Source: Hyphococcus sp.
GTDB lineage: Bacteria; Pseudomonadota; Alphaproteobacteria; Caulobacterales; Parvularculaceae
Direction: 5' to 3'
Assembly (NCBI GenBank): GCA_021776415.1
Contig: JAJFFY010000057.1
Coordinates: 62,001-126,000 of the forward strand
Length of the DNA stretch: 64,000 nucleotides
A program made the position numbers and the translations under genes. Below are positions 17,212 to 18,908 of this stretch, piece after piece. Position 1 is the first letter of the stretch. Each line of letters opens with the position of its first letter. The notes beneath the pieces were generated by a model. That model saw only the letters and a list, made by a program, of their open reading frames with translations. It did no database searches and had not been told where the DNA came from.

Positions 17212-17302
17212 TTTAGACGCTGCGCTCGGCTCCTCTGCAACATCGCGTTGACTTCAAGCCTTGGCGCAGGCCAGTGTTCTCCCGGGACTGGGAGTACCTA
17301 TC

Positions 17303-18454
17303 ATGAAATGGATTGGCTATATTGGACTGGCGCTGATTGTTATCGGCGCAGTCGTATTTTTCGGAGTGATGCCGCAGCGTTTTGATGCGACCCATAATGC
17401 GGTAATTCCACATGAGGCTTACGCCATCAGTGATGACGCGCGGGCTCTTCATGCAACCATTCCAGTCGCCGATCTGCATTCCGATATGCTGCTCTGGCAG
17501 CGTGATCCGGCCAAGCGCCATAAACGCGGCCACACAGATTTGCCGCGGCTTCGCGAGGGCGGTGTTGCGCTGCAGGTGTTTACCGCGGTCACCAAAACAC
17601 CGCGCGGCATAAATCTGGATGAGAACAGCGCCGATACGGATGGCTTAACTGTGCTGATGGTGGCGCAACGCTGGCCAATCGCGACCTGGAGCTCGATCTA
17701 TGAACGCGCGGCCTTTCAGGCGGGGCGCCTGGATGCTTTGGAGGTGCGCGCCGGCGGTAGGTTCATCTTTGCAAAGAACAAGGAAGATTTACAAGCCGCT
17801 CTCGACAGCGGCGCCCTTGCAGGGATCTACGGCATAGAGGGCGCGCACCCCTTAGAGGGTGATCTAGGCAATATTGACCGGCTTTATGATGCGGGATTGC
17901 GGGTGATGGGGCTGCAGCATTTTTTCGACAATGAGCTCGGCGGCTCGCTGCACGGGATCAGCGGCGGAGGGTTGACGCAATTTGGTCGCGACGCCGTCGA
18001 TAAGGCGGTCACGAAAGGCATGATCATCGATGTGGCTCATTCATCGGAAGCCGTGGTGCGCGATGTGCTGGCTCGGACCGATAGGCCCGTCATCGTTTCT
18101 CATACCGGCGTCAAAGGTCATTGCAACAGCCCGCGTAATATTTCCGATCCGCTGATGAAGCAAATTGCCGATGCCGGCGGGCTGATCGGCGTCGGGTTCT
18201 GGGAGAGTGCGATCTGTCAGCCGACGCCGCAAGGCATCGCCGGGGCGATTGCCTATGCGGTTGATCTTCTGGGGGCGGAACATGTGGCGCTCGGCTCAGA
18301 TTTTGACGGCACAGTAACCGCGCCCTTCGACGCTGCCGAGCTGGCGGCGTTGACGCAAGCGTTGATGGATGCGGGTCTTGACGATGAAACAATCCGCGCT
18401 GTTATGGGCGCCAACGCCGTGCAGTTTTTTCTGGAAAACCTGCCAGCGGAATAG
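17303..18454 (+). CDS. Membrane dipeptidase, peptidase family M19 (paralog 1)
   Basis: N-terminal TM anchor; VADLHSDMLLW, VIVSHTGVKGHCNSPRNISD, VALGSDFDGTVTAPFD. Confidence 0.9.
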   Translation: MKWIGYIGLALIVIGAVVFFGVMPQRFDATHNAVIPHEAYAISDDARALHATIPVADLHSDMLLWQRDPAKRHKRGHTDLPRLREGGVALQVFTAVTKTPRGINLDENSADTDGLTVLMVAQRWPIATWSSIYERAAFQAGRLDALEVRAGGRFIFAKNKEDLQAALDSGALAGIYGIEGAHPLEGDLGNIDRLYDAGLRVMGLQHFFDNELGGSLHGISGGGLTQFGRDAVDKAVTKGMIIDVAHSSEAVVRDVLARTDRPVIVSHTGVKGHCNSPRNISDPLMKQIADAGGLIGVGFWESAICQPTPQGIAGAIAYAVDLLGAEHVALGSDFDGTVTAPFDAAELAALTQALMDAGLDDETIRAVMGANAVQFFLENLPAE

Positions 18455-18457
18455 GGC

Positions 18458-18652
18458 TTACAGCGCTGCGCAGATTTCCGCCGCCGCAAAGCACTCGTCA
18501 AACAAGCCGACATCGGCAGTCATGATCGCTGCGGGGATGGCGACCGCCATAGCGATTGCGCCAACCAGGACGTAGAAAACAGCGCGCACCGTCTTTGGTC
18601 CAAATGTGATTTCCGGGACCGCAAAGTCCTCCGGATGCGAAATGGCCGCCAT
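18458..18652 (-). CDS. Small single-TM membrane protein (64 aa)
   Basis: MAAISHPEDFAVPEITFGPKTVRAVFYVLVGAIAMAVAIPAAIMTADVGLFDECFAAAEICAAL; AGGAG RBS upstream and promoter-like elements at 18727-18756. Confidence 0.6.
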   Translation of the reverse strand: MAAISHPEDFAVPEITFGPKTVRAVFYVLVGAIAMAVAIPAAIMTADVGLFDECFAAAEICAAL

Positions 18653-18726
18653 GACATTACTCCTAACACCCCGTTCTTCCGCGGATATGATCGCTTGGCG
18701 AACGGCGCAGTCACAAAACTGTCACA

Positions 18727-18756
18727 CTAATATGCGCACTTATTGCGCAATGTCAA
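18727..18756 (-). promoter_or_regulatory. Sigma70-like promoter (TTGACA - 18 nt - TATTAG on the minus strand)
   Basis: -35 TTGACA (18756-18751), -10 TATTAG (18732-18727), reading towards the 64-aa ORF. Confidence 0.6.
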
Positions 18757-18780
18757 GAGAAAAGCGCAAAATTTGCGCAT
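18733..18780. promoter_or_regulatory. Array of four TGCGCA-type motifs over the promoter
   Basis: TGCGCA 18733-18738, TTGCGCAA 18743-18750, AAGCGCAA 18762-18769, TTGCGCAT 18773-18780; spacing about 11-19-11 bp. Confidence 0.6.
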
Positions 18781-18882: not shown

Positions 18883-18908
18883 CGCTGTATTAATACATTA
18901 ATACAGCG
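18883..18908. promoter_or_regulatory. 26-bp inverted repeat CGCTGTATTAAT-AC-ATTAATACAGCG
   Basis: 12-bp perfect arms with a 2-nt centre, in a non-coding stretch. Confidence 0.65.

Follow-up and report, generated by a model that had tools for sequence, protein, structure and literature searches.

A palindrome-containing promoter module ahead of a microprotein gene

The stretch of DNA analysed here (the window, 64,000 nucleotides) contains one copy of a promoter module that is apparently specific to the Parvularculaceae and that combines a sigma70-type core, one or two GCGCA-N5-TGCGC palindromes and a reverse Pho-box. Comparison with relatives shows that this is a genuine, conserved and family-restricted module for uncharacterised small envelope proteins, larger than the first-pass annotation of the window described, and that it defines a small, hitherto undescribed gene network. 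The elements in the window are the following.

17261–18454, plus strand: convergent membrane dipeptidase (Peptidase_M19), a conserved neighbour that marks positional orthologues
18458–18652, minus strand: 64-residue single-TM microprotein (MAAISHPEDF...FDECFAAAEICAAL), from homologues, hydropathy and AlphaFold
18660–18664, minus strand: Shine-Dalgarno AGGAG, 7 nt ahead of the ATG; similar AGGAGT in orthologues
18708–18725, plus strand: Pho-box-like 11-bp direct repeat CAGTCACAAAACTGTCAC, predicted at about −5 to +13 and reversed relative to the microprotein gene
18727–18732, minus strand: −10 hexamer TATTAG, at an N18 spacer from TTGACA
18734–18748, no strand: spacer palindrome GCGCA-CTTAT-TGCGC, exact in 12/12 class-1 orthologues
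18751–18756, minus strand: −35 hexamer TTGACA, from the sequence
18764–18778, no strand: upstream palindrome GCGCA-AAATT-TGCGC, centred near −50 and separated by 15 nt from its spacer counterpart

The two 15-bp palindromes lie 30 bp apart and are both exact; read on the minus strand, they are GCGCA-AATTT-TGCGC (upstream, 18778–18764) and GCGCA-ATAAG-TGCGC (spacer, 18748–18734), and the full order on that strand is upstream palindrome, TTGACA, spacer palindrome, TATTAG, GTGACAGTTTTGTGACTG, AGGAG and ATG. The first-pass annotation had recognised a sigma70-like promoter (TTGACA-N18-TATTAG, minus strand) ahead of a one-TM microprotein, with one set of TGCGCA-type motifs in the spacer and another upstream of the −35, and this arrangement is confirmed. 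Its description of four TGCGCA motifs forming two pairs has to be revised: as GCGCA-N5-TGCGC is its own reverse complement, each supposed pair is one dyad operator, and each palindrome is best read as the site of a protein dimer. Exact TGCGCA occurs at 18733, as reported, and at 18744 and 18774 instead of 18743 and 18773, while the copy assigned to 18762 is AGCGCA at 18763. Alternative −10 hexamers overlap TATTAG (ATATTA, 18728–18733, at N17, and CATATT at N16). No sigma54 −24/−12 element of the TGGCAC-N5-TTGCA kind was found near the promoter, where only loose GG-N10-GC matches occur in unsuitable places.

The 64-residue reading frame is real: an orthologue search, as proposed in the first-pass annotation, recovered same-genus orthologues of 48–84% identity, in which both the start and the convergent neighbour are conserved. 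Its hydropathy peaks at residues 21–46, and the AlphaFold model consists of one long helix (19–46) with low-confidence tails and nothing informative beyond the TM segment; the protein is thus predicted to have a short N-terminus, a single TM helix and a C-terminal tail. Most homologues conserve Y27, P40, A42 and a Cys-containing tail, usually with two cysteines in the pattern FxECF..A..C, and the family has no match among the Pfam and NCBIfam models. The neighbouring genes (peptidase M19, RibD_C, YaaA, FAD oxidase, glycosyltransferase and others) bear out the earlier statement that no regulator gene is adjacent, and none was seen beside the promoter copies examined. About 105 bp upstream of the palindromes, at 18883–18908, the window also contains a perfect 12-bp inverted repeat, CGCTGTATTAAT-AC-ATTAATACAGCG, which has imperfect counterparts at some of the orthologous loci (upstream in L007 and L025).

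A reverse Pho-box-like repeat over the predicted start site

The third element of the promoter, the reverse Pho-box-like repeat over the predicted start site, had been missed. The PhoB box consensus is an 11-bp direct repeat of the CTGTCAT-N4-CTGTCAY type. On the gene strand the window repeat reads GTGACAGTTTTGTGACTG (18725–18708), and on the opposite strand it matches this consensus at 12/14 positions (two mismatches); four relatives (G016, G021, G022 and G043) match it at 14/14 in the same place, G021 with CTGTCATAAATCTGTCAT. All zero-mismatch Pho-boxes in eight relatives sit at microprotein or exported-protein promoters of the module. Across the module the repeat takes the form TGACA-N6-TGACA (CTGTCAT-N4-CTGTCAT on the other strand), with two to four units at 11 bp that lie downstream of the −10 at microprotein genes or across the spacer at exported-protein genes.

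In sequence and in their 11-bp period these repeats, which number as many as four in tandem at exported-protein promoters, are like PhoB-bound Pho boxes. They differ from the boxes of PhoB-activated promoters in being reversed and overlapping the −10 and start site; at the microprotein promoter of the window the box lies downstream of the −10, unlike the classical Pho regulon layout, in which it has the orientation of the gene and precedes the −10 by about 11 bp. Because of the reversed orientation and the overlap with the −10 and start site, the box is presumed to block rather than to activate. One PhoB orthologue over the curated cut-off is present in each of 10/10 genomes, and the oprP-like/pstSCAB/phoU operons of the window's genome and G021 start with CTGTCAT-type repeats in gene orientation, so that the genus uses this box and its PhoB plausibly reads the same CTGTCAT word. 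The PstS-type phosphate-binding protein (PF12849) is absent from six of eight same-genus genomes (G004, G022, G043, G016, G008 and G015), all of which keep PhoB, and the phosphate logic may therefore differ.

Promoter conservation exceeds protein conservation

Homologues of the 64-residue protein were found in 14/40 relatives, all of the same genus, and further ones through the promoter search. The first-pass annotation had named loss of the motif pair upstream of orthologues as a result that would refute it, and the pair proved to be conserved there. All 12 class-1 orthologues, a set picked for protein similarity, have an exact spacer palindrome, and the upstream palindrome scores at least 9/10 in 10/12 (exact in nine, 9/10 in one); over all microprotein loci chosen in this way, the upstream palindrome reaches at least 9/10 in 18/20. 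In class-2 paralogues (MYETxQSVRRPFLYVV...GGIFDECFGASC) the upstream palindrome persists, as do the TGACA repeats for the most part, but 7/8 of them and nearly all exported-protein promoters have lost the spacer palindrome or never had it. With few exceptions among 47 distinct promoters, 6–9 bp (most often 7) separate the upstream palindrome from the −35, also where there is no spacer palindrome. Per-column information reaches 2 bits in the half-sites of the spacer palindrome, is low at most of its central positions and drops almost to zero in the flanks outside it; since an intact spacer palindrome was one of the grounds for choosing this set, the test on loci chosen by protein similarity is the unbiased one.

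In several genomes the gene beside the convergent peptidase M19 encodes a very different 46–48-residue one-TM protein with the whole promoter intact; conservation is thus stronger in the promoter than in the protein. This rigid promoter code persists where the proteins have diverged to 27–60% identity or changed length, and it offers a handle for finding and ordering unannotated microproteins.

The module also extends beyond the "only a small single-TM protein" of the first description, as the same promoter precedes both the paralogues and an unrelated family of exported proteins of about 117 residues, whose homologues occur in 33/62 of the Parvularculaceae genomes (consensus ...GEPYQVxADVxGYEGLPCWAVDVRVKxRxPNGxxGGYVPYTVxFLDGEPIAL...). 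Exported-protein promoters carry up to four 11-bp repeats at roughly −30 to +10 (upstream 300 bp of L211–L240; L145 and L146). The exported protein is absent from the window's own assembly (G000; 3.3 Mb, 85% complete) and has no accepted match in Pfam or NCBIfam. Its AlphaFold model (pLDDT 84.6) gave no PDB match with E < 0.001 in a fold search, only weak ketosteroid-isomerase-like or Nudix look-alikes. The promoter thus links several types of tiny protein and one exported family that are not covered by the database models searched.

The significance of the module lies in the arrangement of its motifs and not in their frequency. TGCGCA shows no enrichment in the window (41 copies against an expected 51), and the two copies of GCGCA-N5-TGCGC in 64 kb (0.9 expected) are unremarkable by count. 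Twin palindromes, searched for with gaps of 12–18 nt, occur in 16/398 genomes of the order, with gaps of 14–18 nt and all in the window's family (four genera); there were none in the other families among these 398 genomes and none in reversed controls. A palindrome 5–9 nt ahead of TTGAC is present in 33/62 genomes of the family, compared with one in the reversed control, and the new matches precede tiny one-TM proteins or exported proteins of about 117 residues, apart from some that lie inside genes. The combined module, defined as a palindrome (at least 9/10) plus a TGAC-N7-TGAC repeat around TTGA, stands ahead of 14/20 microprotein genes and 17/30 exported-protein genes, both sets having been picked for protein similarity, and ahead of 0/295 other genes and in 0/10,000 shuffles. 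A scan of the window's own genome, suggested earlier as a way of defining a regulon, did not do so: it returned 29 palindromes, nearly all of those examined lying inside genes, and the twin arrangement at this promoter only. Elsewhere in that genome (L079 about 1440–1760, G000:C98), intergenic near-repeated units with TGCGCACTTTTTGCGCA and GTGACCCAATT... were observed that are not upstream of a microprotein.

Candidate binders and a two-input model

NmpR and SpdR, two regulators with which the palindromes can be compared, both carry Fis-type helix-turn-helix domains. A literature search by palindrome sequence returned one relevant bacterial paper, on NmpR of Myxococcus xanthus, an NtrC-like response regulator and sigma54 activator that works in hypoxia, has oxygen-use target genes and binds GCGCA-N5-TGCGC at paired sites 14–15 nt apart (PMC11841059). 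The consensus is identical here and the gap is 15 nt, and NmpR sites too are mostly intergenic; however, NmpR acts at sigma54 promoters of oxygen-use genes, whereas the promoters here are of the sigma70 TTGACA type with microprotein and exported-protein targets, and because they are not sigma54-type they are not standard NmpR targets. SpdR of Caulobacter crescentus, an alphaproteobacterial response regulator, binds CTGCGAC-N5-GTCGCAG (PMC4830024), which shares the dyad and the half-site/N5/half-site geometry but differs in half-site sequence, in occurring as single sites and in its targets. Given the NmpR match in consensus and spacing and the SpdR geometry, a Fis-type response regulator is the leading class for the palindrome binder.

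We slightly favour a two-input promoter in which the palindromes are bound by such a Fis-type response regulator and PhoB blocks the start site. Response-regulator dimers (NtrC/NmpR-like or SpdR/RegA-like) would occupy the palindromes and act on sigma70 polymerase, the upstream dimer in contact with RNA polymerase and the dimer at the spacer site serving as a brake that tunes or closes the promoter. Phosphorylated PhoB on the reverse Pho-box would block initiation when phosphate is scarce, so that synthesis of the microprotein would require both the right first signal (possibly oxygen or redox) and sufficient phosphate. The product probably acts in the inner membrane, its cysteine tail lying on the outer side; a role as a small accessory subunit or modulator is a guess. 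The module predicts two inputs, and an NmpR-type operator sequence may serve at sigma70 promoters. In its widest form, which we put forward tentatively and regard as somewhat doubtful, the model becomes a family-wide regulon: an NtrC/NmpR-like regulator rewired from sigma54 to sigma70 and PhoB would jointly gate microproteins and exported proteins, and in the cell envelope phosphate status would be coupled to a signal of the oxygen or redox type.

The first-pass annotation considered the promoter to be tightly repressed through the palindromes. The near-fixed distance of 6–9 bp from palindrome to −35, with or without a spacer site, suggests a polymerase-contacting activator and suits an activator at least as well as a repressor; from sequence, activation and repression cannot be told apart. 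It is possible, if on present evidence unlikely, that the binder is a conventional repressor of the Lrp/AsnC, TetR, XRE or MarR type that acts cooperatively at both sites, PhoB perhaps acting separately. Sites 30 bp (about three turns) apart are a classical layout for cooperative repression, conservation within the class-1 promoters is highest at the spacer palindrome, and a 5-N5-5 dyad is compatible with Lrp-type proteins too. Against such a repressor, the spacer site is missing from 7/8 class-2 paralogues and from nearly all exported-protein promoters, where the upstream site is nevertheless present at its fixed distance, and the exact consensus and spacing are those of a Fis-type response regulator. 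The 11-bp repeat could similarly be bound by another OmpR/PhoB-family regulator, the module then being unrelated to phosphate. The PhoB profile has 32–61 matches per genome (receiver-only and partial matches included), so many paralogues exist, and the lack of PstS in most genomes tested and the reversed box point the same way; we nevertheless think this reading improbable, as every genome has one PhoB orthologue over the cut-off, the pst operon has the same CTGTCAT-N4 unit and relatives match the consensus exactly.

Two further explanations concern the palindromes themselves. The upstream palindrome might be an intrinsic terminator whose role is to shield the microprotein gene from the gene preceding it: a scanner lists GCGCAAATTTTGCGC-TTTTCTC as terminator-like, and many copies have a T-run after the palindrome. 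The stem is very short, though, a second palindrome lies inside the promoter, where a terminator would be senseless, and copies without the T-run (e.g. GCGCCGGACTCTTGAC and GCGCATGGAGATTGAC) keep both the palindrome and its −35 spacing while the upstream genes differ, which makes this explanation very improbable. That the motifs are meaningless and kept by chance or genome kinship has a negligible probability: two palindromes in 64 kb are not rare in themselves, but the half-sites are invariant where centres and flanks vary (in a set partly chosen for an intact spacer palindrome), the same module recurs before unrelated protein families and in other genera, and the combination is missing from all control genes and shuffles. 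As far as sequence allows, this last reading is already refuted.

NtrC-family regulators of the window's genome

NtrX was considered as binder and rejected, as the ntrY promoter of the window's own genome has CAAC/GTTG elements and no GCGCA dyad; ntrY is an NtrX target in Brucella and Sinorhizobium (PMC9223101). The NtrX motif reported for R. sphaeroides, GCA-N9-TGC (PMC9223101), belongs to an NtrC-family regulator and shares the CA...TG symmetry of the palindromes, but its spacing differs from that of GCGCA-N5-TGCGC. An autoregulated transcription-factor gene carrying the palindrome was sought as a clue to the binder, and none was found. Among the stretches read, the window's genome contains NtrX, which has no GAFTGA loop, and one other NtrC-family regulator; nothing links either of the two to the palindrome. 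An NtrC-family response regulator at L242:922–2394 (G000:C76) has a GSFTGA loop instead of GAFTGA, and receiver proteins of similar length are present in most relatives tested.
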